A stretch of DNA of 64,000 nt from a virus. Location of the stretch: IMG/VR virus record IMGVR_UViG_3300005518_000003, positions 1 to 64,000 of that record; one strand, 5' to 3'. The first letter of the stretch is position 1. Each line of letters begins with the position of its first letter. A program made the position numbers and the translations under genes. Under the pieces are notes generated by a model. That model ran no database searches. It saw only the letters and a list, made by a program, of their open reading frames with translations, and was not told the origin of the DNA. This document shows positions 980-64,000 of this stretch, piece by piece.

Positions 980-1501
980 TTACTTCTTGCCCCTAGGAAT
1001 GCGGTGCGGCAGGTCTTTCTTCGCGACCTTGGCTGGTGCCGCGGCGGAAGCGAGAGCTGCCAGCTCGGCCGGCGGTGCGAACGGCTTACTGGCCTCCGTG
1101 AGCTCTTCGATCAACGCGATGATCCATTCGCCCGTGTCGACGTTCTCGAGCACCGCGTACGGCTGATCGAACGCGTTGAGCACGTAGGTGAAAATGCGGC
1201 CGATCCATTTCGCAGGCTGATACTTGTTGGGACCCGAGTATTCGATCCCGCCGAAGGCCCAATTCACTTGCACGATCGTGCCGGGCTCGAAGCCTCCCGT
1301 GGGTAGGCTCGTCGCGTAGTTGAGATGGACGGCTTCGTTCGAGGCATCGTCGTCGCTCATGAAGAACGGCGACGCACTGTTTCCAGCGCCGCCGCCGATC
1401 GAGCATACGAGCCAGCCGTCGACTTCGTTTTCGACGCGAGGGAGCGTCAGTTGCCAAATGCGACGGAAGTCGAGCGTGATCGTATCGAATTGGTTGGCCA
1501 T
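980..1501 (-). CDS. Hypothetical beta-rich protein
   Basis: A 173-residue protein beginning MANQFDTITLDFRRIW. The first 130 residues are rich in aromatic and beta-prone stretches (GGIEYSGPN, WIGRIFTYVL). An alanine- and proline-rich linker follows, then a basic tail ending RIPRGKK. It is the last gene of a long leftward run that includes fibre-like proteins, so a virion role is likely. No family recognised. Confidence 0.6.
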   Translation of the reverse strand: MANQFDTITLDFRRIWQLTLPRVENEVDGWLVCSIGGGAGNSASPFFMSDDDASNEAVHLNYATSLPTGGFEPGTIVQVNWAFGGIEYSGPNKYQPAKWIGRIFTYVLNAFDQPYAVLENVDTGEWIIALIEELTEASKPFAPPAELAALASAAAPAKVAKKDLPHRIPRGKK

Positions 1502-1511
1502 GAAAATAATG

Positions 1512-2627
1512 TTAGCGGCGTTTGCGCATTTCTGCTCGGATTTCGCTAACGAGGACCGTCGCTTTACCGCCGGCTCGTTTGGCTAGGGATTCGAGTCGTT
1601 CCACACGAGCGCGTAACTGAGTCTTCGATGGCGACGTCTGGAGACGTGCAAGCACTTCCGTTGCCTCAGATCGAACACGAGCAAGAAGAGGATTCGGGTC
1701 GCCACCGCTTCCTCCGTCACTTTCCGTAGCGAACGCAGCGATTGCGTTCATCATCAAATTGTCTTCGAGCTCGACGTTGCTCTGCGTAACAAAGGACGCA
1801 AGAGCCGCGAATGATTGCGCCAGCTCTTTGATCGACTCACTCGAGCCGATCAGTGCGCCCGTCGCAACGAGTTGCAGCACTACTTCTTCGACGAGCGCCG
1901 CCGCCGTCGTGAAGCTCGCCGCCGAGCTAAGCGTGAGCGCAGCATCTGCGGTTACCGCGGCCTGCGCGTTGAGACTCGAAGCTGTTGTAAGGGCCAGCTC
2001 CGGAGAGATCACGGCCTCGGAGAGAGAAGGCAACGCTGCGCCAGCTTGGAGCGATTGTGCTGTTTCGAGGGTAGCGTCAGAGCTTGAGGAGAGCGCGCTC
2101 GCGGCGCTGAGCGTCTCGGTAGCCTCTTGGATCTCGACCGCTTCGGTTTGAAAATCCGTCGCGACGGATAGCGCCAAGGCACCCTCACGAGATAGGGATG
2201 CATCCAATGCAATCGCCGCGGAGGCCGATAGAGACTGGGCGTCTTCTACGACCTTTCCGCCTTCCGTGGAGAAGGCCGATGCGGTCGTGAGTGTTTCGGA
2301 AGCCTCCAGAATGGCGATGTCGTCGGTCACTAGGGCGCTCGCTGCCGTCAAACTTTGCGCGGTCTCTTCCACCAGAGCAGCGTCTTCGGTGAGTGCCGCG
2401 GCGACATCGAACGCCACACTGTCTTCGTAGATTTGTGGAGCGACAGGTTGCTCGCCCTCAATAATGCTGGGGGCCGTTGGCGTATCGAACTCGTTGAAAA
2501 AGTTCGGAAGCAGCGCGCCGAAGTACGACCCGTTGACGAATCCAGCCGTGTTGATGTTGGCGCCCGTTCCGCCGTAGCCAATTTGCTGAATTGCAAAGGC
2601 GCTCGCTCCCGTTCGATAAACGGGCAC
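1512..2627 (-). CDS. Repetitive alpha-helical fibre-like protein
   Basis: A 371-residue protein starting at GTG behind a strong GGAGGAG site 13 bases upstream. Residues about 70-270 are a tandem array of degenerate 22-26 residue repeats of the form [DE]AALxEEaxxLtaASAL, nearly all Ala, Ser, Thr, Glu and Leu. This is the composition of a long trimeric coiled coil or solenoid shaft. The N-terminal 60 residues are Gly/Phe/Asn-rich and could be an attachment domain. The C-terminal 60 residues are basic and helical. It is best read as a virion fibre or spike shaft; the repeat is plain in the sequence, the role is inferred. Confidence 0.65.
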   Translation of the reverse strand: MPVYRTGASAFAIQQIGYGGTGANINTAGFVNGSYFGALLPNFFNEFDTPTAPSIIEGEQPVAPQIYEDSVAFDVAAALTEDAALVEETAQSLTAASALVTDDIAILEASETLTTASAFSTEGGKVVEDAQSLSASAAIALDASLSREGALALSVATDFQTEAVEIQEATETLSAASALSSSSDATLETAQSLQAGAALPSLSEAVISPELALTTASSLNAQAAVTADAALTLSSAASFTTAAALVEEVVLQLVATGALIGSSESIKELAQSFAALASFVTQSNVELEDNLMMNAIAAFATESDGGSGGDPNPLLARVRSEATEVLARLQTSPSKTQLRARVERLESLAKRAGGKATVLVSEIRAEMRKRR

Positions 2628-2630
2628 GGC

Positions 2631-3098
2631 TCACTCCTCCGTGAGGAACGAAACCTCGGAGGTCGGAAATATGATCGCGGCGCGGTTCACGAGTGCGAGC
2701 CCTCGACCTGGGCCGATCGCAATGCCTTCGGGGTACGGCTTCACGATGCCGGATGCCGCCACGGCCGCGAAGACCCACGCGTCGAGATCGCCCGCAACGA
2801 TCGTTGGCTGCGCGGTGTATGCGGCGAGATCGAGAAGGTAACCGGAAAGGGGGTTTGTTCCCGGATCCTCATCGGTCTCGTTGACGGCCGCGGGCGTCAC
2901 CGTCGATCCTGGCGTCCCGCGCGCGCTGAGACGACGAACGAGGAAGCCGGCGCCAGCTCCGGGAGCCGCGAAGGCCACGACGGAGATCTCACGACAGATG
3001 ATCGTCTTCGTCGCATGCGGATTCCAAAGCGCGCAAATCGCGTGTTGATCCGTCGCGGCGGTCGCTGCTGTCGTCCCTGAAACGCGATAGCGAGCCAT
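2631..3098 (-). CDS. Hypothetical virion-associated protein
   Basis: A 155-residue protein beginning MARYRVSGTTAATAATDQH. It has an alternating hydrophobic pattern and many Gly, Ala and Pro residues, as in small jelly-roll decoration proteins. Its C-terminus (AAIIFPTSEVSFLTEE) closes a predicted strand pair. It sits 3 bases from the next downstream gene and between two fibre-like proteins. I do not recognise a specific family. Confidence 0.6.
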   Translation of the reverse strand: MARYRVSGTTAATAATDQHAICALWNPHATKTIICREISVVAFAAPGAGAGFLVRRLSARGTPGSTVTPAAVNETDEDPGTNPLSGYLLDLAAYTAQPTIVAGDLDAWVFAAVAASGIVKPYPEGIAIGPGRGLALVNRAAIIFPTSEVSFLTEE

Positions 3099-3101
3099 GA
3101 T

Positions 3102-9340: not shown

Positions 9341-9945
9341 TTTGGTCCCTGATCGTTGGGCTCAAACTCGGCGTCGATCTCACCTGTCTGCGGAGCTTGC
9401 TTCTCCATGGTCGATCCGAAAACGATCATGCGAAGAAAGTCCTGAAGGACTTCGCCGATAGGCTGCTTCTCAGAGAGAATGCGCTCGATTTTTTCCTTCG
9501 TCTCGAAGCTGAAGACGTGAAAGTTCGATCCGCCTTGCCTCTTTTTGAAGGAAATCTCGACCTCGATCCTGTCGATGTTGTCGGCGAAAACGGCCACACC
9601 TTGGTCGACGACGAAGTTCACCATTTTGGCTGGACCAGCATCGGCCGCGGACTTGATCGCTTCGATGTCGATGAGATCTTTCCAGTTGATCCCGGCGAGT
9701 TTGCCCATTTTTTGGATAAGCGTCGTGTAACCGTACACCGCAAGGAGCACCGGCCATCCAAACGAAACGGTGAGAGCCACCAGCTTTAGGAACTTCGCAG
9801 GTTCCTTCACGCCGTGAAAGGCTGGAATCGCTCCGAGAAACGGCAGCATCGGTGTGATCTTCCAGATGAGGTACGCGTACGCGCCGCACGCGATCGTCAT
9901 GTAGATGAGCGACGAGACGATGATGAAAAGCTGCCAGTGAGCCAT
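9337..9945 (-). CDS. Two-helix membrane protein
   Basis: A 202-residue protein. The ATG at 9945 (MAHWQLFIIVSSLIYM) forms TGATG with the stop of the GroES-like gene. Residues 4-30 and about 55-75 are membrane helices. The cytoplasm-like C-terminal 120 residues are soluble and charged. No family recognised. Coupling to the co-chaperonin gene suggests a structural or assembly role. Confidence 0.55.
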   Translation of the reverse strand: MAHWQLFIIVSSLIYMTIACGAYAYLIWKITPMLPFLGAIPAFHGVKEPAKFLKLVALTVSFGWPVLLAVYGYTTLIQKMGKLAGINWKDLIDIEAIKSAADAGPAKMVNFVVDQGVAVFADNIDRIEVEISFKKRQGGSNFHVFSFETKEKIERILSEKQPIGEVLQDFLRMIVFGSTMEKQAPQTGEIDAEFEPNDQGPK

Positions 9946-10535
9946 CAGTCCTCTTCGATCGCGGCGCGAAGCTGATCGTCTGCGACGACGACATGAGCTT
10001 CGCCGCCGATGGTGATCTCTGGCGAGTAGTTGTGGAAGTAGAGGACACGTTGCCCGATAACGACGTCTGGCATCGGCCACCGTTTTCCGCCCTTCTGTCG
10101 CATGCCAGGACCCATAGCCACGATCGTGCCAGAGACAAGGGCCTCTTTTTGCTGGCGCTCCTTTTGGTAGCTCTTCGGGATCACGATGCTGCCCACCTTT
10201 TCCTCGGGGGGATCGGGAAGAAGCAGCACTTTGTTGCCGATCGGTCGAAGCGTACCGTTCTCGAGCACGCCGTGGATGTCGAATTCTTCGAGGAGCAAGA
10301 ACTCGCCCTCCTCGAGCTTCACCACTTTGCCGGCAGAGCGAACGAACATGACGCGATCGTCCGTCTTCACGTCGAGAACGAACTCGGTCCCCACCGAGAC
10401 AACTTCACCTTCGGACGTCGGGATTTGCGCGGAGTCGGGGATGTGGATGAGTCCGATCTTTTTCTGGATCTCGTCGCGCTTGACGAGCACGCAGTCGTGG
10501 AGCGTCCGAAAATTCACCTTTCGTTCTTCGGTCAC
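9945..10535 (-). CDS. Tandem GroES-like co-chaperonin (two Cpn10 domains)
   Basis: A 196-residue protein. The GTG at 10535 overlaps the upstream stop (GTGA) and has GGAGAAGAAAG upstream. Residues about 8-90 match a Cpn10 barrel: TLHDCVLVKRDEIQKKIG, IPDSAQIPTSEGEVVSVG, and a closing LLLEEFDIHGVL. Residues about 92-190 repeat the plan: LRPIGNKVLLLPDPPEEKVG, IVIPKSY, GTIVAMGPGM, and VIGQRVLYFHNYSPEITIGG. GroES is normally one domain of 95-100 residues. A fused pair would cap host GroEL with altered symmetry and could, like T4 gp31, help fold a viral capsid protein. The domain calls are strong; the viral role is inferred. Confidence 0.8.
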   Translation of the reverse strand: MTEERKVNFRTLHDCVLVKRDEIQKKIGLIHIPDSAQIPTSEGEVVSVGTEFVLDVKTDDRVMFVRSAGKVVKLEEGEFLLLEEFDIHGVLENGTLRPIGNKVLLLPDPPEEKVGSIVIPKSYQKERQQKEALVSGTIVAMGPGMRQKGGKRWPMPDVVIGQRVLYFHNYSPEITIGGEAHVVVADDQLRAAIEED

Positions 10536-11876: not shown

Positions 11877-12218
11877 TTAGCTGACGGGCGTCACCCGTGT
11901 GCCACCTGTCGTCCCGGTGGTCAGCCGCTCGGTGTATTTGATTTCGCCTGGTCCCGCGGGTTCTTCGCGAAACCAATCGTTTCCTTCGCGCGCGAAACAG
12001 ATCGGTTCGCTCATTTCCACCTGATCACGGTGGAGAAGACCAATCGGCACGCCTTCTTCGATCAAGTAGGGGACCTCGAGCGTTCGAAACTCGGAGTTGC
12101 CGCGGAGCATGTGACGGAGGTCCATGCCGCCGTACAGCGCAGGCTTCGGACGCAGGAAGGGGAAGATCGCGTACACGATCGCCAAGAGTCCGGCGACGAT
12201 GAAGTTGCGACGTTCCAT
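11877..12218 (-). CDS. Membrane protein carrying a capsid-protein-derived segment
   Basis: A 113-residue protein. Residues 5-22 (NFIVAGLLAIVYAIFPFL) are one membrane helix. Directly after it comes YGGMDLRHMLRGNSEFR, identical over 17 residues to the large capsid candidate at 16008-17390, then a diverged continuation (VPYLIEEGVPIGLL against LPYIIGAGIPIGLV). At DNA level 39 bases are identical (12096-12134 and 16437-16475). The remaining 50 residues are unrelated. It looks like a membrane anchor fused to a piece of the major virion protein. Confidence 0.65.
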   Translation of the reverse strand: MERRNFIVAGLLAIVYAIFPFLRPKPALYGGMDLRHMLRGNSEFRTLEVPYLIEEGVPIGLLHRDQVEMSEPICFAREGNDWFREEPAGPGEIKYTERLTTGTTGGTRVTPVS

Positions 12219-12249: not shown

Positions 12250-12696
12250 TCACGCCGCGACGAGCGTGACAAGAGCTTGCCAGATGACCTGGTCTTTCGT
12301 GCCGACGCTGAGAGTGAGAGCACCGCGGGATCCCGGATCCGTTCCTGGAGGGATCATTAGATAGAGCTGCCCGAGCTCTCTTTTTTCCCAAAGCATTGCA
12401 AAGTCACCCGTAAACATTTCGTTATCGCCGATATCATTCCGAGCAACGATCTCGGGAGGGATTTTGATCCACAAAAAGTCCGCTGTCGGTCGAAGGAGAA
12501 ACGCCCCGTTGTCTCCGTCATGAAGAAGAAGCGGTGCATTGAGGTTGACTGACTTCGGCTGCGCTTTGGATGGAAGAAACGCGATTGGAACGCCTTGGGC
12601 CGCTGCTTTTTTCGGCCAGAAGACGATCGCTCCTGCGGCAACTCCCGCCACTCCCGCAGCAGCGAGCCACGCCCACTTTTTTGTTTCGGGTGTCAT
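12250..12696 (-). CDS. Membrane-anchored virion-type protein
   Basis: A 148-residue protein. The ATG at 12696 (MTPETKKWAWLAAAG) is chosen because the membrane helix (about residues 8-27, ending FWPKK) starts right after it. A soluble beta-rich domain of about 115 residues follows (NLNAPLLLHDGDNGAFLLRP, LTLSVGTKDQVIWQALV). No lipobox or cleavage site is seen. Same plan as its neighbours; family unknown. Confidence 0.6.
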   Translation of the reverse strand: MTPETKKWAWLAAAGVAGVAAGAIVFWPKKAAAQGVPIAFLPSKAQPKSVNLNAPLLLHDGDNGAFLLRPTADFLWIKIPPEIVARNDIGDNEMFTGDFAMLWEKRELGQLYLMIPPGTDPGSRGALTLSVGTKDQVIWQALVTLVAA

Positions 12697-12700: not shown

Positions 12701-13291
12701 TCACGCGTGCCGGCGTCGACGGTGGCGAGCTCCGCCCTTTTTTGGTTTCGCAAGGACGGCCCACCCGATGATGCCAAGTCCGAGCACCGCCGCGCCGCCG
12801 AGAATCCACGGCGTGTAATCAGACTCCGTGGTCGTCCCGGTCGGTGGAACGGACACGGGAGTGATTCCGCCGCCACCGCCTTGAACAGGACCCGTTCCGT
12901 TGTGTGACTTCGTGTAGCCGACGCCACCGAGGTAGTCGGTCGCGACGTAGCCTTCTTTGCCGGAAAGCTCACCGCTCAAGACTTTGACGTGTGCCCAGTT
13001 GTGGCCACCGGCGTTGTAAACCATTTGCGCGTCCGTATCGACCGTATCGACCGGTTCGACGACGACGTTGTTGTTCGCGCCGTATCTGTTGTTGAAGCGA
13101 CCGATCTCGGCTCCGTTCGCTGTTTGACGAAGCGCCACCTGCGTCCCCGTGATCTCGTACGTGCCGGCAGGAACTTTTTCGCGAAGATTTGGATCCCCGA
13201 GAATGCCGAGACCCTCGTAGACGGACCCGAACCACGCCCCGAGACCAGCGGCGAGTTGAACTTCTTCGTGTTTGACGAGTTGCGTGTCCAT
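12701..13291 (-). CDS. SH3-like domain protein with C-terminal membrane anchor
   Basis: A 196-residue protein preceded by AAAGGACAGAAC. Residues about 45-125 form a bacterial SH3-like module (ITGTQVALRQTANGAEIGRF ... WAHVKVLSGELSGKEGYVATDY). A Gly/Pro/Thr linker leads to a C-terminal membrane helix (ILGGAAVLGLGIIGWAVLA) and a basic tail (RHRRRRHA). SH3 modules bind peptidoglycan or proteins. Anchored this way the domain could project from a virion membrane. Confidence 0.65.
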   Translation of the reverse strand: MDTQLVKHEEVQLAAGLGAWFGSVYEGLGILGDPNLREKVPAGTYEITGTQVALRQTANGAEIGRFNNRYGANNNVVVEPVDTVDTDAQMVYNAGGHNWAHVKVLSGELSGKEGYVATDYLGGVGYTKSHNGTGPVQGGGGGITPVSVPPTGTTTESDYTPWILGGAAVLGLGIIGWAVLAKPKKGGARHRRRRHA

Positions 13292-13301: not shown

Positions 13302-14384
13302 TTATGCAGGCGCGAGATGGCGCGGTCGAGATTCCTTGAGGGCCTTCCAAACGAGAAAGCCTCCTCCTCCGATCGTAGCTGCGATGGCAGTGCCGAGCAG
13401 CACCTTGCTTGTGGTGCTCATTCCCTGCGGAGGAGTCATCGGGGTCGGAGACGGAGATGGTTGCGGCTGCGGCTGTTTGATCTGCGTTCCAGCACCCGGT
13501 TCAACATACAACTGCGCGACCCAGCCAGCTCCGTGTGTCTGCGTTCCGACGCGCACGTAATCGATTCCGGCAAAATTCGGATCATTGTTCGGAGCTACGG
13601 TTTCGTCTTGCTTGACCATCCACTTGGGATCGGTCTCGACATCACCGAAGACGTACACATTTTCGCCGTTCTGAAGCGTTGCGATCGCGGTGGACTCGTA
13701 CTCCGGCTTCGCACGAAGAATCACCCCGGTACCTTTGATGTGGTAGTTCCCCGGCGTCGGATGTTCGTCGTATTCCATCCCGAGTCCGCGCTTTGACGGG
13801 CGGTAGTACGGATAGATGCCGACCCGCGCGCCTGGCGACGAAACCGGATTGACGGGACCCATCTGCGAGGCACCGTGTTCCGGCGAGCCAACTGGCCACA
13901 CCGGTCCCATTCGTTCGCTGCTTGGCATGTAGTAGGGATAGATCCCACCAGGGGCTCCAGCCGATGACGGACGAAACGATTCGATGTCTCCGAGCCCAGC
14001 GACACCGTAAAGACCCGTGATGAAACTGGCCGCGACGACGCAAACGAAGTACGCATGCGGCGAAGCTCGCTCACCCCACCATCCACCGCCTACGAATGCT
14101 GCACGCCATCCAGCTTGGAAAGGAAGCTTCGAGAGCGTGGCAACGACGTCGGAAGGAACCGGACCCGCGGGAGGCATCCACGAACACGATGCCGGCTCGA
14201 CGTAAACGTTAGGACCCCAAAACCAGGGCCAATCGAACCACGGCCCGCCACCGCGGAAGCGACGAAATCTACCCCCGTGGGAAACTGTATGATGAAATCC
14301 ACCATGCGGGTGTCCCCCACCGCCCATAGGTGGAGCGCCGAGTCCGATGATCGCACTTACGAGCTCGAGGTCTTGCGCGTTCAT
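13302..14384 (-). CDS. Large SH3-like protein with Gly/His-rich head and C-terminal membrane anchor
   Basis: A 360-residue protein. Residues 15-50 are Gly/His/Trp/Pro-rich. A possible membrane segment lies near residues 110-128 (AYFVCVVAASFITGLYGVAG). Two IYPYYxPS motifs appear at about 145 and 200. An SH3-like domain (NYHIKGTGVILRAKPEYEST ... VRVGTQTHGAGWVAQLYVEP) spans about 215-300, followed by a Pro/Gln linker and a final membrane helix (VLLGTAIAATIGGGGFLVW). It probably reaches from the membrane outward. Start overlaps the previous stop (ATGA). Confidence 0.65.
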   Translation of the reverse strand: MNAQDLELVSAIIGLGAPPMGGGGHPHGGFHHTVSHGGRFRRFRGGGPWFDWPWFWGPNVYVEPASCSWMPPAGPVPSDVVATLSKLPFQAGWRAAFVGGGWWGERASPHAYFVCVVAASFITGLYGVAGLGDIESFRPSSAGAPGGIYPYYMPSSERMGPVWPVGSPEHGASQMGPVNPVSSPGARVGIYPYYRPSKRGLGMEYDEHPTPGNYHIKGTGVILRAKPEYESTAIATLQNGENVYVFGDVETDPKWMVKQDETVAPNNDPNFAGIDYVRVGTQTHGAGWVAQLYVEPGAGTQIKQPQPQPSPSPTPMTPPQGMSTTSKVLLGTAIAATIGGGGFLVWKALKESRPRHLAPA

Positions 14385-15250
14385 TCTTCGGGGTCGTCGA
14401 TCTCGAAGACCAACGCTCCTGCCACACGCCAGATGATGGCGGTTGGGAAATTGAGAAGAAATTGTTCTTCGGGCGAGAGGCCGCCTTCAAAAAACGGATT
14501 CGGTGCGGGAATTCGAACACGGCCTTCTTGCGAATCAGGATTCGTTTGCTGCACGCTCGCGTAGAACGCGATTCGGCACGGTCCCTGAAGACGAATGTCG
14601 AGTGCGTTCCAGTCGTGCGCATCGTCCCAGCGCGTTTTGAGATCGTAGAACGTATCGAGCTCACCCGTTACGCCCTCACCTGGTGGTTTTCCTCCGAGCG
14701 GAGGCGTGTACGCCGTGAGCTGCACGTAAAACGGCGTTGGTGTCGCAACGGTATTGAAGAGCAATCCAGGTCCAGCGGAATCGCGGAACGCGAGGTTCTG
14801 CTGATTTCCGCCGGTAAGCGGATCCATCCTTTGCTCTTGAAGTGGCGGACGACCATACGGTTCGTTCTTCCCCATTAGGCGCATGTGCCACGAGATATTT
14901 CCGTCCGGCAGCTTGAAATTCGGCGTTGTTACCCACTGCTCGACGACGCGCGGTCCCGCAGGAGGTCCTGTCACGTCGAGCCTGGTACCGAGCGACCAGC
15001 CCATGCGAAATCCGCGAAGCCAAACGTTGCACGCTTCCGGAAAATTCGCCGTGCAGAGCAAAAAGAGGAAACGGTTCGTCGGACCGTGGGTGACGAGCGC
15101 AGGCACACGAAGGCCAATCGATGACGTTCCGCCGTACGGATCGCCAGCGAGACCCTGCAATGCTTCGTCGATGCCGGTCGAGACGAGCTCGACTCGGCGT
15201 CTTGGAATCACCAGGCTTGGATATCGTCGGAGGTGAGCGACTGCGCCCAT
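14381..15250 (-). CDS. Probable virion structural protein
   Basis: A 289-residue, beta-rich, soluble protein (MGAVAHLRRYPSLVIPRRR) preceded by GAGGCTGA. Long strands, abundant Pro/Gly turns and an acidic end (VFEIDDPEE) suit a capsid or vertex protein. It lies between the SH3 protein and the capsid candidate in one coupled operon. I do not recognise a family. Confidence 0.6.
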   Translation of the reverse strand: MGAVAHLRRYPSLVIPRRRVELVSTGIDEALQGLAGDPYGGTSSIGLRVPALVTHGPTNRFLFLLCTANFPEACNVWLRGFRMGWSLGTRLDVTGPPAGPRVVEQWVTTPNFKLPDGNISWHMRLMGKNEPYGRPPLQEQRMDPLTGGNQQNLAFRDSAGPGLLFNTVATPTPFYVQLTAYTPPLGGKPPGEGVTGELDTFYDLKTRWDDAHDWNALDIRLQGPCRIAFYASVQQTNPDSQEGRVRIPAPNPFFEGGLSPEEQFLLNFPTAIIWRVAGALVFEIDDPEE

Positions 15251-15258: not shown

Positions 15259-15927
15259 CTACGACTTGCACGCCGTGATGTAGCAGTCCGGAATCTGGAT
15301 TCCGCACATATCACGAAGTCGAAGCAGCGCTTCGCGATCCGTGATGTTGACGCCGTCGAACTTGTCCGTGTCGGGCGTAAGCGTTTTGAACGTCATCACG
15401 ACCGTGATTGGGAAGTCCGGGAGCTGGACACGCGCGAGAAAATCGACCTGGAGCTGCTGTTGGTACGTCATCACCCAGATGCCGTTTGGAAATCCGGGTC
15501 CTGGCGTTCCGGCGGCTTTCGCGAGCGTCGAGAGTGGCGTGAACTTCGATGCGATCGACGGCCGCGGCATGCCGACGACGTTGATCTTCGCTTCGATGCC
15601 GCTTTGGAGCGAAAAGAAGAAGTCGCTCTGCGGTTGAAGCACGTTCTGCGGCGTGCGGTCGCGTGTGATCGTGTACTCGATCTCCTCGATGATCGTGTCC
15701 GCGACGATCTTCACGTCGCTTCCGACTTCCGGATTCAGATTGCGATCCGGGTTGTCGAACGTCGTACGGACGTTGATGTAGTAGGGCACGAACGGAATGC
15801 CCTGCGCGCGCGCGAGTGCGAGTCGCGGATACCCGAGTGAGAGAAATCGGTAGATGTCCCTCAGCCAGTGATCGATCCCGCATGCCCCGGCGCAGTCGCC
15901 GAATCCCTTCTTGAGCTCGTCATTCAT
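15259..15927 (-). CDS. Probable virion structural protein
   Basis: A 222-residue soluble protein. It opens with a cysteine-containing helix (GFGDCAGACGIDHWLRDIYR) and continues as a strand-rich domain (YYINVRTTFDNPDRN, FPITVVMTFKTL), ending with a cysteine-bearing segment (MCGIQIPDCYITACKS). It lies directly downstream of the capsid candidate, separated by a structured 80-base gap. Possibly a minor capsid protein; no family match by eye. Confidence 0.6.
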   Translation of the reverse strand: MNDELKKGFGDCAGACGIDHWLRDIYRFLSLGYPRLALARAQGIPFVPYYINVRTTFDNPDRNLNPEVGSDVKIVADTIIEEIEYTITRDRTPQNVLQPQSDFFFSLQSGIEAKINVVGMPRPSIASKFTPLSTLAKAAGTPGPGFPNGIWVMTYQQQLQVDFLARVQLPDFPITVVMTFKTLTPDTDKFDGVNITDREALLRLRDMCGIQIPDCYITACKS

Positions 15928-16007: not shown

Positions 16008-17390
16008 TTAGATGTTGACGAAGCCGCACTCGCACTCCGAGCAGAGTGCATCGCGCGCGTCCGCGTTGTTGCGGAGGAACGTCATGAGGTCGCCGTCGAG
16101 CTCGCGGCCCTTGACGAGCATCGAGAGCTTGAGGTCGCCCATCTTGTAGAAGGCGCGCTCCGCGAAGACCGCCTGCGAGTAGTTGACGATCGCCGCGGGC
16201 GGCACGTCGAGCGATTGCTCGAGCATGACCGGCGAGCCGCTGACCGTTCCGCCGAAGTTGATGTTCGTCGCGTCGACGATGAACGGAGGAATCACGCCGT
16301 TGCCCTGACGGCCCTGCGTGACCGAGAGGTAGTCGCGCATGATGTCGCCCTGGGTGTCGTCGACCTGCTGGAGGACGAGACCGATCGGGATGCCTGCGCC
16401 GATGATGTACGGCAAATCGAGCTTTCGGAACTCGCTGTTGCCGCGGAGCATGTGACGGAGGTCCATGCCGCCGTAGGTGACGGGCGCGAGCTCGAACGCG
16501 CGCGACGGACGGAATTCACCGACCGGTACGCCGCCGACCGTGAGCACGCCCTCGCGGATGAAGTCGATCTTGAGGAAGTCGAACGCCGTTCCGAGCGAGT
16601 CGTAGTAGTCGTTCGTGCGACGAATCTCGGCGAGAACTGCGTCCTCGCTGAGACCCGACGAGCCGTCCTGAGCGTTCGGCGGCATGTACGCCGTGTGACG
16701 GAGGATTTCGTCGAGGATGTTCCACTTCGTGCCGATCGCCCAGCGGAGATCGTACGCGCGCACGAGGTGCCACGCGACGTAGTTGGCCCACGCACCCCAC
16801 TGAAGGATGGCAGGACGCATGAACTGCGTCGGCGTCTGACCGTCGAAATTGTCACCGAGGGCTCCGTTCACGATGTCGGCGACGGTGAAGACATCGGGGC
16901 TCGGCGGCTTCGCTTGGCCGACGACCGGGTGCGTCCACGCGTTGCCGAGAATCGACCACGACTTCGGCTCGGGTTCGAGGTGAAATCCGATCGCGCACGC
17001 GAGCATGTGGGTGTTGAGCTCGCCGTTCTGCGGCATCGTCGATTCGACGAATGCCACACCTTCGACGCTCTTCGAATTTCCGAAGAGATCGATCTCGCTC
17101 GAGAAGTTCTTCTCGATCGCCTGGTCGGTGATCGGGCCGACGAGCGTCCAGCGCGTTTGATGGATCGTGTCCATCGCGTAGGACGCGCAGTCCATCGAGC
17201 TCTTGAGGAGGTTCGTGACGCCAACCGCGCCAAGACCCTTCTTCACGCCGCCTTCGTAAGAGCGGACCTTCTCGATGCTGATCGGCTCGCCAAGGCCGAC
17301 TTTCTTGATCTCGATCTCCCGCTTGATTTGGCGGAACTTCGGGCGGAACGGGTGTTTCGGAGTCGACGGTTTGGCAAGTGCGGTGTCCAT
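16008..17390 (-). CDS. Candidate major capsid protein
   Basis: A 460-residue protein behind a strong GAGGAGAACAGC site. The N-terminal 45 residues are basic. The rest is strand-rich with Pro/Gly turns and no membrane helix, as expected for a shell protein; the C-terminus is cysteine-rich (CSECECGFVNI). Its size, likely high expression, flanking structured RNA and central place among virion-type genes make it the best major capsid candidate. I cannot tell a double jelly-roll from another fold by eye and I see no HK97 signature. Residues about 307-350 hold the YGGMDLRHMLRGNSEFR segment copied in the 11877-12218 membrane protein. Confidence 0.55.
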   Translation of the reverse strand: MDTALAKPSTPKHPFRPKFRQIKREIEIKKVGLGEPISIEKVRSYEGGVKKGLGAVGVTNLLKSSMDCASYAMDTIHQTRWTLVGPITDQAIEKNFSSEIDLFGNSKSVEGVAFVESTMPQNGELNTHMLACAIGFHLEPEPKSWSILGNAWTHPVVGQAKPPSPDVFTVADIVNGALGDNFDGQTPTQFMRPAILQWGAWANYVAWHLVRAYDLRWAIGTKWNILDEILRHTAYMPPNAQDGSSGLSEDAVLAEIRRTNDYYDSLGTAFDFLKIDFIREGVLTVGGVPVGEFRPSRAFELAPVTYGGMDLRHMLRGNSEFRKLDLPYIIGAGIPIGLVLQQVDDTQGDIMRDYLSVTQGRQGNGVIPPFIVDATNINFGGTVSGSPVMLEQSLDVPPAAIVNYSQAVFAERAFYKMGDLKLSMLVKGRELDGDLMTFLRNNADARDALCSECECGFVNI

Positions 17391-19133: not shown

Positions 19134-19322
19134 CTTTCTGCCTCGTTTTCGTGGGGTGTCTGCATGAAGGACCACCGCCCGCCTCGAAGCAGCCTGCTCT
19201 GGCTCGGAACGCGCTCGCGAGAGAATCTCTCGATAGTCGACGGGCATGACGGTGTTCCCACGTCACCCGCACGTAACGCTTGGGAGAAGTCTACGCGCAG
19301 ATCGAGAGATTACGCAACAAGG

Positions 19323-19838
19323 TCACGGAACCACGATTCCGCGGTCATCGACGATGCATCCGTCCGGCAGCTCGATCCGATAGAACTGCTCCGAGGTCTT
19401 TCGACGCCAAAAGGAATAGAGCACCGCGGGTTTCTTGAACGCTCGGCTCTTGAATGGATAGAGAAGAAGCTGCGTGAGATTCTTCGCCTTGTTGAATTTA
19501 TGGTGAAAGAACCCCGGATGCTTTGTGCCTGCTCGGTCGTAGTAGATCTCGTTGATCTCTCCGAGCTTGTGCCACGTGGAAATATTTTCTGGCGGAAGAT
19601 CGATTCCGCCTTCGAACACGGTTGCGCTGCGACCAAAATAATCTGAACCTTCGTCGCTCTCTGTCTTTCCACGATCGAACTCACCGATCAGCAAGCTGCA
19701 CGTGGGCCAGTCTTCACCACTCTCGTCGTAGAGCATCGCCGCGTCGCGAGCCGGCTTGACCCTCTTACTCCCGCTACCGAGACCGATTCCCGGAGCGCGT
19801 AGGTTGATCTCGATCTTGCGTCCCATGCAGATCAGCAT
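19323..19838 (-). CDS. Hypothetical virion-region protein
   Basis: A 171-residue soluble protein with AGTGAGG before the ATG; MGRKIEINLRAPG four codons later is another start. It is mixed alpha/beta with an acidic middle (FDRGKTESDEGSDYFGRS) and a beta C-terminus (RIELPDGCIVDDRGIVV). No family recognised. Confidence 0.55.
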   Translation of the reverse strand: MLICMGRKIEINLRAPGIGLGSGSKRVKPARDAAMLYDESGEDWPTCSLLIGEFDRGKTESDEGSDYFGRSATVFEGGIDLPPENISTWHKLGEINEIYYDRAGTKHPGFFHHKFNKAKNLTQLLLYPFKSRAFKKPAVLYSFWRRKTSEQFYRIELPDGCIVDDRGIVVP

Positions 19839-24018: not shown

Positions 24019-24207
24019 TCACTGGTCGGACACCGCCACCAAGATCGCGATCAGAGTGAGCGGCCAAAACGCGGAAACGAACATCGCTCCGATCGTTACT
24101 TCGACCAATTCTTCCGTCGTCGCGCGGTGTTTCCAGGGACGGATCACGGCCGCGCAGAGGCCCATTGATCCAGTAAACCCGAGAAGCCAGATGTGAAAGA
24201 TTGTCAC
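24019..24207 (-). CDS. Small two-helix membrane protein
   Basis: A 62-residue protein with GTG start 2 bases after the previous stop. Two hydrophobic helices (IFHIWLLGFTGSMGLCAAVI and AMFVSAFWPLTLIAILVAV) flank a short charged loop (RPWKHRATTEELVE). The size and topology would also suit a holin, but no lysis gene is adjacent. Function unknown. Confidence 0.5.
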   Translation of the reverse strand: MTIFHIWLLGFTGSMGLCAAVIRPWKHRATTEELVEVTIGAMFVSAFWPLTLIAILVAVSDQ

Positions 24208-49129: not shown

Positions 49130-49782
49130 ACGAGCACGAAGAGAAGGTACGTCGCTTGATCGCGCTCGCTCTCAACGCGGGCGCCACGGACGGCGAATCG
49201 AGGAATGCTGCCATTCAAGCGCTGCGTCTCATCGAGAAGCACGGACTCATCGGAAATAGTTCTGGTCCGCAGGCTCCCACGGGTCGAGATGACACCGCAT
49301 ACAACCACATCGTCATCGCGAACCTTCAGGAGCGCATCCGCCTCCTCGAGTCGATGGTGCGCGGCGCGCGCATGAACGACGCACTTTTGCAAGGTCAGAT
49401 CCGACGCCTCAACGAGGATCTTGCGAGGGCGCACAACGAAATCGCTGGCCTCAAACACGAGGTCATGGAGGAGAAAGACAAAAAGCGCGATGCCGAGGAT
49501 CGTGCTCGACGCTTCCGTGATCATCGCTTTCCAACAACGGTGACTGAGCCTGTATGGAGACCCGGTCCGCATCCCATGAGCCAACCTGGTCGAGGGACGG
49601 TGCGGGACCCCGAACCATCAAACGGATCAAAGCCACGTCGCAAAATCATCCGTTCCCAGTATTCAGGGACGTGCAGCCGGTGTAAGGAACCGTTCGAAGT
49701 GGGCGATCGGATCGCCTGGCGAAAGGGCGCCGGGGCTCTGCATCTGCTCTGTTACGAGCGCGAGCTCCAGGAGCCTGCATGA
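49126..49782 (+). CDS. DUF2786-like protein with coiled coil and zinc ribbon
   Basis: A 218-residue protein with GTG start. VRRLIALALNAGATDGESRN, then AAIQALRLIEKHGL, matches the DUF2786 helical motif. A coiled coil (LQGQIRRLNEDLARAHNEIA) and a basic Pro-rich linker follow. GTCSRCKEPFEVGDRIAWRK with LLC completes a zinc site. The 54956 gene shares this two-part plan. Role unknown; it is next to the primase. Confidence 0.6.
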   Translation: MNEHEEKVRRLIALALNAGATDGESRNAAIQALRLIEKHGLIGNSSGPQAPTGRDDTAYNHIVIANLQERIRLLESMVRGARMNDALLQGQIRRLNEDLARAHNEIAGLKHEVMEEKDKKRDAEDRARRFRDHRFPTTVTEPVWRPGPHPMSQPGRGTVRDPEPSNGSKPRRKIIRSQYSGTCSRCKEPFEVGDRIAWRKGAGALHLLCYERELQEPA

Positions 49783-52094
49783 TGCACGCCCCCGCATCGA
49801 CCATCCGATTCGACTTCAGCACTGATCCGGACATTCGCGTGCTCGACGCCGCGATCGAATACTTCCGCGCGGGCGCTGTTCCGGTCTTCTTGCATGGCAT
49901 CGAGGGCGGCAAGTGTACGTGCGGTAAGTCGCACGACCAGAAGACGAACGGAAAACACCCAATCCTTCGCAATTGGCAAAGCTCGATCCCAAAGGACGAG
50001 AACGCCATCCACGATCAATTTCAGTCGATCAAGGTCGCCGCTCCGAACGTCGGTCTCGTACTCGGTGCGCAGCAAACCGGCGACTACCTCATCGCGATCG
50101 ACAAGGACAGCGAAGAGCGGTTCGACGAGCTTACGGGCGAATTCGGAGCGCTTCCGAAAACACCACGCTGCGATTCAGGCCGCGGACACCGTCTCTTCTA
50201 TCGCCTGCCCGCGGGCATCCCTACGGATCGCCTAAAGAACGTCACCGGTATCGGGGGTCAACCCGGCGTCGATGCGAAGGTAAAAGGCGGACAAGTCGTC
50301 GTCGCACCGTCGAAGCATTTTCTTGGCGGCGTTTACTCATGGGTCGCCGACACCATGGGCGCGCTCGCCGAGCTACCCATGACGTGGGTCGATGCGCTCA
50401 TCGCCGAACCACTGCCGCCGCCATTCGCGCGCGAGTACACGCCGGAGACAATTCGCGCCGACGATCGTGCAAAACGAAAGCTCGAACGGTACCTCGAACG
50501 TGCTGTCATCGAAGAGTGCTCGCGTCTTTCGCGCATGCCCGAAGGACTTCGGAACACGTATCTCCATCGCAAAGCGATCTCGCTCCTCTCGCTCGTCAAC
50601 GGATGCTTCATTCCTGCACGTTGGGGCTACGTTCTCTCCGAGCTCGATAGAGCTGCGCGTGCGGCTGGTCTCTCTGGATCGGAAGTTCGAAAGACGCTGA
50701 CCTCTGCCGAAAACTTCGTCACGCGCGAAGGTGCGACGCGCGGTCCGCGTCCTGTTGTCGATCCGCCAACGTCGTCGCCTCCGTCCGGAGGTGAACCACC
50801 AACGAATGGCGCTGCGCCCTCTGCGCAGCCTGCGCCCGAGGGAGAACCGTCGCCGCAGCGCTATCCGCTCATCGTTCTTGTTCAAGATCGAGGACAGAAC
50901 GCAGCGATCGCAGAGAACGTCGCGCGCGTCCTGTCCCATCATCCGGAATGGAATGGAGGTCCGCGTCGAGACATGCTCGGGCAAACCGTACGCTGGTCAA
51001 ATCCTCTTCCTTCCCCGATCGCAGACATCCCGCGATCACGTTCAGCGATTGCGGACGAAGATCGAGCAGTGGTCCAAGCGTGGGCGTTAGGGAACTTTCA
51101 GGTTCGAGCCGGCCTCGATGTCGTTCGAGAAGGAATTGATCTCGCTGCGCGCCGTCACTCGTACGACAGTCTTATGGAGTACGTCGAAAGGCTCCCTCAG
51201 CACGACGGTGCACCTCGCCTCGACTTTTGGCTTACGACTTACTTTGGAGCTGCCGATGCGAGGGTTATTCGTCGCATCGGCCGCGCTTGGCTCACGAGTG
51301 CGATGGCTCGTGCGCTCTACCCTGGGTGCGTGGCCGATGGAATGCTCATTCTCGAAGGCCAAGAGGGAACGGGAAAAAACTGGGGCATCGAAGAGCTTTT
51401 TGGAAATGAGTGGGTAAGCCAACTCGGAAGATACAAAATTGGTGAGGATTCTGAAGCGGATCGTCTTGCCGGAATGTGGTGGGTTCTTCACGACGACGAG
51501 CTTCGCTTTCGGAAAATGCAGAAGGACGCGATGTTCTCGTGGATCACACGAAAGACCGACACCTTTCGTCTCCAGCACAAGAAGGAAATTCTAACGGTGC
51601 CGCGTCGAGCGGTGGTCGTCGGATCGAAGAATCCTCCGTACCAATACCTCGACGACGGAGAAAATCGTCGCTTCTGGCCCGTGCGTACCGGAAGGATCGA
51701 CATCGCAGCGATCAAACGAGATCGCGAACAACTTCTGGCCGAAGCACTGCTTCTCGCTCGAAGACAGGATCCAAGCGAATGGATCATTGAAAAGGACGAT
51801 CCCATTTGGGAAGACCTCGCCGAAGAGCGCGCCGAACGCATCATCAACGACCCGTTGGTGATGGACGTCATGCAGGTCCTTCCTCACGACGCAGAGATCG
51901 TCACCACGCGATGGATCCTGAACGAGCTCGGCGTTCCGCCCGAGCGGCGAAAGCAGATGGACCAAGCGGTTGCGACCGCGCTCGAGCGACTTGGCTACAC
52001 GAGTCAACGTGCACCTCGGACCGTTCCGGGTCGTCCCCGGATCCATGTCCGGTCCGGGGTGGTCCTAGGTGGAAAAATGAAAGTTTATTCGTGA
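49779..52094 (+). CDS. Primase-polymerase / VapE-type helicase fusion (replication initiator)
   Basis: A 771-residue protein. Residues about 15-210 are a bifunctional primase/polymerase domain: DYLIAIDKDSEERFDELTGE with DxD at 108-110 and SGRGHRLFYRLP at 133-144; the insert CTCGKSH may bind zinc. The middle is a linker rich in Pro (about 325-365). The C-terminal virulence-E helicase has GQEGTGKN near 527-534, WWVLHDDELRFRK and PRRAVVVGSKNPPYQYLDDG then NRRFWPV. Such proteins prime and unwind at phage and plasmid origins. Iteron-like repeats follow within 250 bases. Confidence 0.85.
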   Translation: MMHAPASTIRFDFSTDPDIRVLDAAIEYFRAGAVPVFLHGIEGGKCTCGKSHDQKTNGKHPILRNWQSSIPKDENAIHDQFQSIKVAAPNVGLVLGAQQTGDYLIAIDKDSEERFDELTGEFGALPKTPRCDSGRGHRLFYRLPAGIPTDRLKNVTGIGGQPGVDAKVKGGQVVVAPSKHFLGGVYSWVADTMGALAELPMTWVDALIAEPLPPPFAREYTPETIRADDRAKRKLERYLERAVIEECSRLSRMPEGLRNTYLHRKAISLLSLVNGCFIPARWGYVLSELDRAARAAGLSGSEVRKTLTSAENFVTREGATRGPRPVVDPPTSSPPSGGEPPTNGAAPSAQPAPEGEPSPQRYPLIVLVQDRGQNAAIAENVARVLSHHPEWNGGPRRDMLGQTVRWSNPLPSPIADIPRSRSAIADEDRAVVQAWALGNFQVRAGLDVVREGIDLAARRHSYDSLMEYVERLPQHDGAPRLDFWLTTYFGAADARVIRRIGRAWLTSAMARALYPGCVADGMLILEGQEGTGKNWGIEELFGNEWVSQLGRYKIGEDSEADRLAGMWWVLHDDELRFRKMQKDAMFSWITRKTDTFRLQHKKEILTVPRRAVVVGSKNPPYQYLDDGENRRFWPVRTGRIDIAAIKRDREQLLAEALLLARRQDPSEWIIEKDDPIWEDLAEERAERIINDPLVMDVMQVLPHDAEIVTTRWILNELGVPPERRKQMDQAVATALERLGYTSQRAPRTVPGRPRIHVRSGVVLGGKMKVYS

Positions 52095-57065: not shown

Positions 57066-57280
57066 CGAATCCCTGCTGCTCGCTGAAGCTCTGGAATTTG
57101 ATCCGTAGGGATAAGGAATCCGCCCTGGGCTGCCGTAGCCCAACCAGCCTTCCAGAGGGATTCATAGATGCTCCAACCTTCGTCGCTCGGGACGAGAATG
57201 CGACCACGAGCGAGAAGAAGCTTCACGAGTGCGCGAAGTTGCGGAGGTCGGAGCTGTTCGAGAGATTTTTTCTTTTTCAT
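57062..57280 (-). CDS. Small basic hypothetical protein
   Basis: A 72-residue protein (MKKKKSLEQLRPPQLRALVK), helical N-terminus, then a beta/Gly-rich part. Coupled at both ends. No family recognised. Confidence 0.5.
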   Translation of the reverse strand: MKKKKSLEQLRPPQLRALVKLLLARGRILVPSDEGWSIYESLWKAGWATAAQGGFLIPTDQIPELQRAAGIR

Positions 57281-58077
57281 CCGAACCTCACGACGGCTTT
57301 GATCGGCGTACCCTGAAATTGAATCGTGCGCATGCGCCCGCCGGGCGGAAGCTGGCGCAAACGGATGTACTGGTCAGTGACGTCGACCTTTCCGCTTTTG
57401 AAACCGTGCTTCTTCGCCCATGTTTGCGCAGTCTCCGGTGTGAAACTCGAACGCGGAAAGAGGAGCGTCTGCACGCGACCGCCGCCGGCTCCAGGAGCTT
57501 TCGATGCTGGACGTTTTCCAGGAAGACGCTTGACCGGATTTTCTTCAGCGGCTGCAAGACGTCCAACGACAGGGATTTGCCGAAAGAGATCAGGGCGGAA
57601 GTAGTAGACCGCCCCGCCCGTGGCGGCAGCGATGAGTGCGACCGTGACGACTGGATGCTCTTTCACCCAAGCAGCAGCTCCTCCCGAACCGATCGCACCC
57701 TCGTACTCATTTTGGTATTGGAGAACTTTTTGGACGTAGTTTTGCGTTTCCGCGTACGGAGGAATGCCTCCAGCTTGAGCGACCGCACCTGGACCTGCGT
57801 TGTACGCAGCCACCGCCAAAGGTGTGGAGCCAAACCTCTGCAAGTTCTGTTTCATGAGGCGCGCAGCGCCGTCGATCGCTTGCGCCGGATCCATGGGGTT
57901 CACCCCGAGGTTTGCTGCCACTTCAGGCATGATTTGCATGAGACCCCGTGCGCCCGCTGGGCTCATCGCGTTCGGATTGAATCCGGATTCCGCCCTCGCC
58001 ATCGCAGCGAGCAAGGCAGGGTCGACGTGGTATTTCTTACCGGCGGCGACGAAGAGCGAAGCGTACGGAATGCTCAT
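57277..58077 (-). CDS. Membrane-anchored lytic transglycosylase (SLT) with NPV junction and extra C-terminal domain
   Basis: A 266-residue protein. Residues 1-125 are a soluble-lytic-transglycosylase domain: AMARAESGFNP with catalytic Glu30, GARGLMQIMP at 43-51 and AVAAYNAGPGAV at 88-99. It cleaves peptidoglycan between MurNAc and GlcNAc. There is no signal peptide. A membrane helix (VVTVALIAAATGGAVYYF) spans about 143-160, EENPVKRLPGKRP lies at 178-190, and a C-terminal domain of about 70 residues follows. Anchored this way it suits an entry enzyme in a virion membrane. The ATG overlaps the upstream stop. Confidence 0.8.
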   Translation of the reverse strand: MSIPYASLFVAAGKKYHVDPALLAAMARAESGFNPNAMSPAGARGLMQIMPEVAANLGVNPMDPAQAIDGAARLMKQNLQRFGSTPLAVAAYNAGPGAVAQAGGIPPYAETQNYVQKVLQYQNEYEGAIGSGGAAAWVKEHPVVTVALIAAATGGAVYYFRPDLFRQIPVVGRLAAAEENPVKRLPGKRPASKAPGAGGGRVQTLLFPRSSFTPETAQTWAKKHGFKSGKVDVTDQYIRLRQLPPGGRMRTIQFQGTPIKAVVRFG

Positions 58078-58718
58078 CGGCGGAAGTATCCTTTGCGCCA
58101 GAGGACCGCAGCGGTCGCGATCGCTCCGACAGCGCCAACTGCAACGAATATCTTCGTCGTGCTGCTCCATTGGCTGCTAATGGCTTTCGCAACAGCGCTT
58201 GCCCACGTTTGAGCTCCAGCACCGTAGAGATGTACGCCATCGCCTTGGCCGGCGTTCACCGCTGCTTGCGTCGCCGGCCTGGAATCGAAGACGGCAGAAC
58301 CGGCTGCCTTGTAGAACGCCGCGACGGCAGCATTCGTGTAGTACGGCACGTTCCCACGCGTCGCGGGCGGACCAATCCAGAACGTTTGCTTCGCGTTGTA
58401 GCTCGCGATCGCCTTTTTGATGTCGGCGACGGCTTGCGTGACGGAGCGACCGCCCGCGGCGGCATTCGCTGCATCGTTCGTCCCGAGCGAGACGATAAGC
58501 AGATCAGGTGAGTGCGGGAGCTTCGACTGGTCGACGCACCACGAGTTGTCAGGTCGACAAACGGTCTGTCTCGTGGCCCACATCAGGCCGTTCGAGGATC
58601 CAACGCCCGCGACGGTGACGATGTAACCCTGCGCCTGGAGAAGCTTCGCGAGATCCGGCCCGAATGCACCCACCGGCTCGACATGGCTGTCGCCAATAAT
58701 GAGCGCGGTTTTCGCCAT
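58074..58718 (-). CDS. SGNH-family hydrolase with C-terminal membrane anchor
   Basis: A 214-residue protein. LIIGDSHVEP near residue 7 is block I with Ser11; VAGVGSSNGL is block II; VSLGTNDAANA is block III; GDGVHLYGAG near 174 supplies Asp and His. This is an SGNH/GDSL esterase-like hydrolase, which could deacetylate or de-esterify cell-wall glycans. A C-terminal membrane helix (KIFVAVGAVGAIATAAVLW) and basic tail anchor it. It is co-transcribed with the transglycosylase. Confidence 0.75.
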   Translation of the reverse strand: MAKTALIIGDSHVEPVGAFGPDLAKLLQAQGYIVTVAGVGSSNGLMWATRQTVCRPDNSWCVDQSKLPHSPDLLIVSLGTNDAANAAAGGRSVTQAVADIKKAIASYNAKQTFWIGPPATRGNVPYYTNAAVAAFYKAAGSAVFDSRPATQAAVNAGQGDGVHLYGAGAQTWASAVAKAISSQWSSTTKIFVAVGAVGAIATAAVLWRKGYFRR

Positions 58719-61942: not shown

Positions 61943-61955
61943 GTTGATCCTCTTT

Positions 61956-62486: not shown

Positions 62487-62503
62487 GGCAATTCAGCTCC
62501 TCG

Positions 62504-63547
62504 TTATGTGGTCGCGACTTCCCAGTCGATGGTTGAGGTGTCCGCGCCGTTGACCGCTCCGCCGCCCGCCGCGACGAGCGCCGAGATCTGGAACGAGCCT
62601 GGATTTCCGTTGACGCGATCCGCAGCAAGCGCCGCGTACTTTATGGTGAGGGCATCACCAACAGGTGTCTTGAGAGACACGAGAATGCGGCTGTTTGCGT
62701 TGAGAAACGCGGGGATAGCCGCCGTCTTTCCCGTTCCAGCCACGATTGCGGTCGAGCCGCGAGCGACCATCCCGAGAGGAATGACCGCTGCGGCAGCAAC
62801 CTGCGTGTTGTACGGAAGGAGTCCGGGGAATGCCGTCGATGAGACGAAGACGTTTCCCGTGACGCCGACGCCAACGGAAAGCATGTTCGCGTCGAGAACG
62901 GCGGTGTCTTCGATGAAGATCTGAAGCACTCCGCCGACCGATGCGCGAACGGCGATCGAGCCGCCGTCGAGCGTGGAAATGAACGCTCCGTCCTGCATGT
63001 AGAGATTGAGTGATCCCGCCGTCATAGCGAGAAACGAAACGCCGGCACCCGAAAGAACGCTCTGGTAGATCGCCGAGAATCCGCCCATGTAGTAATCGAC
63101 CTGGTTTGCGGCGGTCACGGAGATGACATTCGATGTCGATCGGTTGTCGATCTGAACGTCGAATTGCCCGGAGAGCCCATGGATAGTCACGGCGGCATTC
63201 GCGATCGTGATGAACGGCGCCGAGTTGGTCTTGCTCGCGTTGACCAAGTAAACGGGGCCAGAAATGCCAGGCGGTCGAAGATCCCATGCACCAGCAGGGA
63301 TAACGGCGGCGGCGAGATCAGTGTCGACACCGATCGTAACGTCGCCGTTCACTTTTGCGACGGCAGCAACGACCTCAGCCCAAGTTGCGTAGACGTTGTC
63401 CGCGCTGACGCCACCTGGACGCCAGATGACGCTCGTCGATTGAGCAAAGGAGGTTGCAGAAGCGACGGCGGCAGCGAAAGCTCGATTTTTTTTGAGCAGG
63501 CTTTCGATCCGATCAATGCGCGGTCGACCTGCGGGAATAAACGTCAT
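62504..63547 (-). CDS. Beta-helix-like fibre/spike protein
   Basis: A 347-residue protein. A short coiled-coil start (PRIDRIESLLKKNRAFAAAV) is followed by a domain introduced by VYATWAEVVAAVAKVNGDVT, the usual entry of single-stranded beta-helix spikes. Rung-like repeats follow (GPVYLVNASKTNSAPFITIA, AVTIHGLSGQFDVQIDNRST, GSLNLYMQDGAFISTLDGGS, GVLQIFIEDTAVLDANMLSV). A compact C-terminal domain ends the protein. It is probably a trimeric spike for host binding. Confidence 0.65.
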   Translation of the reverse strand: MTFIPAGRPRIDRIESLLKKNRAFAAAVASATSFAQSTSVIWRPGGVSADNVYATWAEVVAAVAKVNGDVTIGVDTDLAAAVIPAGAWDLRPPGISGPVYLVNASKTNSAPFITIANAAVTIHGLSGQFDVQIDNRSTSNVISVTAANQVDYYMGGFSAIYQSVLSGAGVSFLAMTAGSLNLYMQDGAFISTLDGGSIAVRASVGGVLQIFIEDTAVLDANMLSVGVGVTGNVFVSSTAFPGLLPYNTQVAAAAVIPLGMVARGSTAIVAGTGKTAAIPAFLNANSRILVSLKTPVGDALTIKYAALAADRVNGNPGSFQISALVAAGGGAVNGADTSTIDWEVATT

Positions 63548-63591
63548 GGCGATCTCCCTAAAACGCTAGAAGTTGACGGACCTCGACGCGG

Positions 63592-64000
63592 TTAGATCAC
63601 TTCTTCGAGGAGAAGCGCTGCGCCATCGATGCCGGCGCCGGCCACACCGCCGAGCGTAACGGCATCGTCCCCTGCGGTCGTCTGCCAGTGCACCGAGATC
63701 ACCGTGCCGGCCGGAGCTCCTGAATCGAACTCGAACACGGTGCTCGCACCGTCGACGACTCCTGCGGTCGCAACCGGAGCCCACGAATACACCGTGGTGA
63801 AAGCACCCGCGCCGACCTTCACCTGAAGGAACGCGTTGACGCCGCCTGCACCGCCGCCTCCCACGCCGGAGTAGCTCGCATTGATGAGGATTTTTCCGGT
63901 CGGCCCTTTCGTCGTGATCGATGCGTCCGGGGTGATTGTGGTGCCCGCAGCGACGACCACACCGGAGAGCGCGACTTGCTGTACGCGGTTTCCGAGGATC
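63592..64000 (-). CDS. Probable virion surface protein, start outside the window
   Basis: The frame is open to the window edge (ILGNRVQQVALSGVVVAAGT), so the start is upstream; an internal GTG at 63960 is less likely. The visible 136 residues are beta-rich and Gly/Ala/Thr-rich (ILINASYSGVGGGGAGGVNA, VISVHWQTTAGDDAVTL), suggesting a decoration or fibre protein. It precedes the beta-helix gene on the same strand. Confidence 0.55.
   Translation of the reverse strand, partial: ILGNRVQQVALSGVVVAAGTTITPDASITTKGPTGKILINASYSGVGGGGAGGVNAFLQVKVGAGAFTTVYSWAPVATAGVVDGASTVFEFDSGAPAGTVISVHWQTTAGDDAVTLGGVAGAGIDGAALLLEEVI

Follow-up and report, generated by a model that had tools for sequence, protein, structure and literature searches.

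In the literature, double jelly-roll viruses of prokaryotes have genomes of about 7-20 kb; among tailless membrane phages, the largest that we found described is SSIP-1, at 44 kb (PMC5894146; PMC8812541; PMC6260650). SSIP-1 is an icosahedral internal-membrane phage that has been grouped with the two-capsid-protein lineage (PMC5332951; PMC6356626; PMC6260650), and its virion has T=49 and a size of about 100 nm (PMC6260650). Here we analyse IMG/VR virus record IMGVR_UViG_3300005518_000003, of 78,563 bp, starting from its positions 1-64000 (81% of the record; hereafter the window). A preliminary description of the window had pointed to a large virus-like gene set with a membrane-virion signature and no tail genes, and had put the known tailless membrane phages at 10-20 kb; that range is too narrow, as known ones reach 30-44 kb (SH1 type, SSIP-1). 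The interpretation itself is supported: the record is a complete circular genome, and the virus is likely a tailless, membrane-containing one of bacteria, from a lineage not described before whose genomes are of 60-80 kb, the virion morphology being predicted from gene content.

The evidence for a complete genome comes from the contig ends, which carry the following feature.

1..90, no strand: terminal direct repeat, identical to positions 78474-78563 of the record

Because this exact 90-bp repeat is found at both ends and one recombinase frame spans the join (a serine-recombinase open reading frame of 303 codons, continuous across the joined ends), the genome closes to a circle of 78,473 bp. 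The recombinase is evidently split between two called proteins, whose matches fall in the same integrase and invertase families. Most of this complete circular bacterial-virus genome lies in the window. It had been suggested that the window was simply too short to show the tail genes; circular closure rules this out, so that the absence of terminase is genome-wide and not a window artefact, and the 14.5 kb outside the window, when retrieved and inspected, added no tail module. The idea thereby survived the refuting condition set for it in the preliminary description, a terminase or tail module just beyond the window.

A query with p289, a small putative virion protein considered below, gave the first two related contigs, and profile scans then extended the set to 17 relatives in IMG/VR, which together with the window makes 18 contigs. 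Seven of the relatives have exact end repeats (62-127 bp), so that eight genomes, window genome included, are circular; their sizes are 60-79.5 kb, their repeats measure 90, 110, 97, 62, 123, 123, 127 and 91 bp, and no terminase was found in any of them. A gene cut by the contig ends of relative G002 is whole in relative G001, and thus provides an independent check of circularity. As far as the IMG/VR listing shows, the record of the window is not marked for end repeats, and the eight circular records (G000, G002, G005, G007, G008, G011, G014 and G015) all go unmarked despite exact repeats of 62-127 bp; completeness is therefore probably understated there.

Pfam and PHROG scans of the proteins called on the whole 78.6-kb contig revealed none of the families for terminase, portal, tape measure or tube, in agreement with what had been noted from the window. 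Two batch family scans cover the best 25 of 37 and the best 25 of 32 families by frequency. Because batch scans give only the most frequent families, a six-frame search with terminase models weighs more; this was negative in the window genome and positive in the tailed control MW202482. A true terminase was found in 0/18 contigs, eight of them circular, and the control terminase was found each time. A terminase match in G013 (1.8e-6) was rejected, as the reading frame encodes an SF2 helicase like that at 45522-47147 of the window. Searches for portal (PF04860) and HK97 capsid (PF05065) gave no match but carry no weight, because both also missed the control's own genes; the PHROG scans of the window genome showed neither a portal nor an HK97-type capsid. 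Judged by the missing terminase, the tailed phages (Caudoviricetes) are excluded as the home of the lineage. It is improbable that the lineage is nonetheless a tailed one in which divergence has made the terminase, portal and tail proteins unrecognizable. No homologue is detectable for the capsid candidates, so further genes could be unrecognizable too; p391, a protein of the conserved block described below, has weak matches to phage baseplate and head proteins, and tail-fibre-like matches occur in G002. Those fibre matches, however, include collagen-like repeats, which are not tail-specific; the few canonical P-loop proteins left in the circular genomes are mainly of replication types; and it is the most recognizable gene of tailed phages, the terminase large subunit, that was not found in any of the 18 contigs.

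The contigs are united by one gene block that includes three putative shell-protein genes.

16008..17390, minus strand: p460, capsid-protein candidate, family in all 18 contigs
15259..15927, minus strand: p222, jelly-roll-like capsid-type protein by AlphaFold2, in all 18 contigs
14381..15250, minus strand: p289, second small putative virion protein, always adjoining p222, in all 18 contigs

The p460-p222-p289 trio is present in the same order in 18/18 contigs. Gene order was laid out for four circular genomes (window, G002, G005 and G007), in which the block runs from a RadC/JAB protein through p154, p391, a 500-amino-acid (aa) protein, membrane proteins and a transglutaminase-like protein to p171, p578, p460, p222, p289, further membrane proteins and GroES. 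Ten families are common to the first eight contigs, and all ten lie inside this virion-like block. Replication genes vary among the same eight contigs, the window genome being without its relatives' PolA-type polymerase and RecD-like helicase; replication is a separate, exchangeable module.

Circular genomes that have recombinases but lack a conserved packaging motor would also be expected of large plasmids, plasmid-phages or satellites, with a borrowed virion block or dependent on a helper, yet this explanation is very improbable. An autonomous virus better explains that one conserved block recurs across otherwise very different genomes of uniform size (60-80 kb) and that a co-chaperonin, wall enzymes and a protein homologous to a known virion protein are encoded; the family scans of the window genome showed no plasmid conjugation or maintenance family; and two scans of cellular genome contigs did not find the block, and revealed no provirus or host.

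Over a dozen single-pass membrane proteins had been reported for the window. We find 20 called proteins with a predicted membrane span in the genome, mostly a single one, and they are concentrated in the block (9.9-29.3 kb), where 11/24 genes encode a span versus 9/117 elsewhere (Fisher p = 2e-5). Enrichment was seen in all six circular genomes tested, which when pooled have 70/151 span genes in the block versus 77/633 outside (p = 6e-19); the tailed control has 2/49. This enrichment is consistent, indirectly, with an internal-membrane virion. The three membrane-anchored enzymes previously noted were also recovered, each with a predicted span: the transglutaminase-like protein, an SLT transglycosylase and an SGNH hydrolase. 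Apart from the transglutaminase-like protein, the genes concerned are as follows, called from span prediction and, where a domain is named, from domain scans.

11877..12218, minus strand: 113-aa protein with an N-terminal anchor, carrying a copy of p460 residues ~302-341
12250..12696, minus strand: single-span membrane protein
12701..13291, minus strand: protein with an SH3-like domain (sub-threshold) and a C-terminal membrane anchor
13302..14384, minus strand: neighbour of p289, likewise with an SH3-like domain (sub-threshold) and a C-terminal membrane anchor
19845..20681, minus strand: membrane protein
21569..21916, minus strand: single-span membrane protein
21955..22311, minus strand: single-span membrane protein
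22598..23698, minus strand: membrane protein with a C-terminal hydrophobic segment
23695..24006, minus strand: single-span membrane protein
24019..24207, minus strand: small membrane protein
57277..58077, minus strand: SLT transglycosylase with a membrane span, a candidate for entry or lysis
58074..58718, minus strand: SGNH hydrolase with a C-terminal membrane anchor

The copy in the 113-aa protein reflects a duplication of p460 gene stretch 16370-16475 at 12029-12134 (82% DNA identity), seen only in the window genome among the genomes clustered. A block protein of G002 combines a peptidoglycan-binding domain with an N-terminal membrane span.

A direct connection to a described virion is provided by the remaining anchored enzyme.

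20678..21565, minus strand: transglutaminase-like protein, membrane-anchored at its C terminus and homologous to SSIP-1 gp34 by hmmsearch and hhalign

This family matches SSIP-1 gp34, annotated as a structural protein, with an hmmsearch value of 5e-13 and an hhalign probability of 96.7%. Both are Transglut_core proteins (Pfam) with a C-terminal span, and Cys, His and Asp are invariant; within the lineage the C-terminal anchor is usual, not universal. Profile comparisons with the other proteins tested from SSIP-1, P23-77, PM2, PRD1 and FLiP detected no relationship. In G010, the transglutaminase-like gene (L074:14851-16503) has an intein-like insertion exactly at the active-site cysteine motif, with Hint and LAGLIDADG domains that are both below the Pfam cut-off.

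The jelly-roll-like neighbour of p460, together with this homologue of an SSIP-1 virion protein, supports a tailless membrane virion. An AlphaFold2 model of p222 built from 16 sequences has a predicted local distance difference test score (pLDDT) of 74.8 and a predicted TM-score (pTM) of 0.68, with strands at residues 46-57, 67-71, 78-89, 111-118, 124-131, 151-153, 158-165 and 174-185, a modelled layout that appears jelly-roll-like. Foldseek matches were weak yet rich in jelly-roll capsids, including Sulfolobus polyhedral virus 1 (SPV1) and PRD1 P3; the SPV1 coat protein has the top query TM-score among the PDB matches listed (0.36, E 0.018). The top TM-score among the BFVD matches listed, 0.41, belongs to I1ZBI0, whose length (256 aa) equals that of SSIP-1 gp47; it is not used as evidence. 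By profile, p460, p222 and p289 have no match in the PDB, and p460 nothing useful in PHROGs; single-sequence scans and tblastn of p460 and p222 against a phage collection found no relative. The capsids of the lineage are probably of jelly-roll type. Within a tailless membrane virion, a p460 of double jelly-roll fold (Bamfordvirae type) might instead make up the shell, and p222 and p289 would then be minor or vertex proteins. The size of p460 fits, no other shell candidate is as large or as strongly coding-biased, and PRD1 P3 is among the p222 fold matches; no internal repeat was found in the p460 profile, however, and the known prokaryotic double jelly-roll viruses are below about 20 kb (PMC5894146; PMC8812541). 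We consider this arrangement possible and somewhat doubtful.

A HerA/FtsK-superfamily ATPase had been listed among the membrane-virion elements.

33057..34838, minus strand: HerA-like ATPase, only in the window genome and G010

The gene is present as described; the packaging role implied for it did not hold. This ATPase (DUF87) occurs in 2/18 contigs, i.e. in one of the 17 relatives, and a 42% identical homologue is encoded by a tailed phage with a terminase, portal and tape measure of its own; the ATPase was therefore rejected as the packaging motor of the lineage. It also matches PHROG family 2666 (5e-17), labelled terminase large subunit, a label that may mislead terminase-based phage calls. 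FtsK_SpoIIIE was not found in any of six lineage genomes searched for it. In G002, G005, G007 and G008 the canonical P-loop proteins belong mainly to RecD-like, VapE-like and AAA_24-like replication types, and the only one in G011 is a chance match in p460; no FtsK/HerA-type P-loop protein was found in these five circular relatives with a pattern that would miss variant Walker A motifs. As the lineage yielded no conserved motor of the FtsK/HerA or terminase kind, packaging probably proceeds by another route. Precedents without a packaging ATPase are FLiP, SPV1 and the Odin group; the genomes are small in FLiP and the Odin group (PMC5894146; PMC8812541).

By its working plan the lineage is a tailless membrane phage, yet by membership it cannot be assigned to an existing group. 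SSIP-1 is similar in its circular genome (double-stranded DNA in SSIP-1 and presumably here), in lacking a terminase, in being large for a tailless phage, and in having several anchored late proteins, among them the structural transglutaminase-like gp34. It differs in size (43.8 kb compared with 60-79.5 kb), in its virion-associated ATPase gp40, which has no conserved counterpart here, and in having no p460, p222 or p289 homologue by sequence, gp34 alone being detectably homologous. P23-77 (Singelaviria, Helvetiavirae) has a tailless membrane virion, a plan predicted here from genes, and adjacent small and large capsid genes, VP16 (173 aa) and VP17 (291 aa), which resemble p222 and p289 in size and order only. 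It differs in having a 17 kb genome and a packaging ATPase, sequence similarity is lacking, and a jelly roll is predicted here for p222 only. Of the features expected for Singelaviria, two adjacent vertical single jelly-roll capsid proteins have a possible counterpart in p222, predicted to be jelly-roll-like, and the adjoining p289; membership fails on the FtsK/HerA-superfamily packaging ATPase. SPV1 (Portogloboviridae) has the single jelly-roll coat that p222 weakly matches and is without a packaging ATPase (PMC8812541), but is an archaeal virus, compared here by the p222 fold match only. PRD1, PM2, FLiP and other double jelly-roll phages have the tailless membrane plan with anchored wall enzymes that is predicted here, and a packaging ATPase is likewise missing in FLiP and the Odin group (PMC5894146), but their genomes are of 7-18 kb and no homologous proteins were detected.

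Other genes of the block, and genes of replication and metabolism, are listed below.

17511..19247, minus strand: p578, Pro/Gly-rich virion-block protein with a hydrophobic N-terminal part, by family conservation
19323..19838, minus strand: p171, conserved virion-block protein, by family conservation
24210..25721, minus strand: Pro/Gln-rich protein of ~500 aa with a coiled-coil stretch, scaffold or core candidate, in at least 10 contigs
25746..26921, minus strand: p391, putative beta-repeat virion protein, by weak PHROG matches to phage structural proteins
26934..27398, minus strand: p154, conserved virion-block protein, by family conservation
27428..29320, minus strand: RadC/JAB-domain protein at the conserved block edge, by domain and family conservation
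9945..10535, minus strand: GroES-like co-chaperonin at the opposite block edge, by domain and family conservation
49779..52094, plus strand: prim-pol and VapE-like primase/helicase (replication), by domain scan
31943..32842, minus strand: ThyX thymidylate synthase, by domain scan
48296-49129: Dam, by domain scan

The RadC/JAB protein contains several degenerate ENPVEARD-like motif copies separated by unrelated segments. With four tRNAs, the gene set is as first described (460-aa reading frame, HerA-like ATPase, ThyX, Dam, prim-pol/VapE, GroES-like protein and tRNAs). Pfam and PHROG matches of the window genome cover replication and repair (prim-pol/VapE, SF2 helicase, AAA_24 ATPase, PD-(D/E)XK nuclease, endonuclease VII, Dam, ThyX) and otherwise GroES, SLT transglycosylase, SGNH hydrolase, transglutaminase-like and RadC/JAB families. 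Around 20-35 kb of G002, several genes encode collagen-like repeats (Gly-x-y) or long, beta-rich sequences resembling fibres, possibly receptor fibres on a tailless virion. Putative lipoproteins at L003:11430-11900 and G002 36291-36863 have Asp/Ala/Pro/Gly-rich spacers and are similar to lipoproteins of myxobacteria, a faint hint that the host is possibly among the Myxococcota.

The shared block would build the virion. The protein shell, presumably icosahedral, would be formed by p460, the jelly-roll-like p222 and p289, over a lipid layer holding at least 10 small anchored proteins and the transglutaminase-like protein. Anchored wall-binding and wall-cleaving proteins may open the host envelope, and the DNA would be delivered by the membrane instead of a tail. 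Packaging would probably occur by co-assembly with DNA, by an unrecognized motor, or by a host or accessory ATPase. Several points weigh against a tailless membrane virion. No particle has been seen, and no member of the lineage has a known host. The link to SSIP-1 is through one protein in common, gp34. Among the three shell candidates only p222 has a predicted fold, with weak matches (TM-score at most 0.36-0.41, no PDB match below E 0.001); the AlphaFold2 model of p460 was unusable (pLDDT 31, 7 sequences). A motor outside the FtsK/HerA pattern could also have escaped detection.

A literature search covering sources other than subscription papers and preprints found no description of this group, and the size record holds within that literature. 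We tentatively suggest, at somewhat less than even confidence, that these are the largest known tailless icosahedral membrane phages, founding an order or class of their own within or next to Singelaviria, with 60-80 kb genomes and no dedicated packaging ATPase. The group is invisible to standard annotation, as its shell proteins match nothing in PHROGs or the PDB. Its genomes are up to almost twice the size of that of the largest known tailless membrane phage. A missing conserved packaging motor has so far been noted for small-genome viruses, so that how a large genome enters the virion becomes a testable question, and a lineage of 60-80 kb would widen the cargo range of tail-less bacterial virions.

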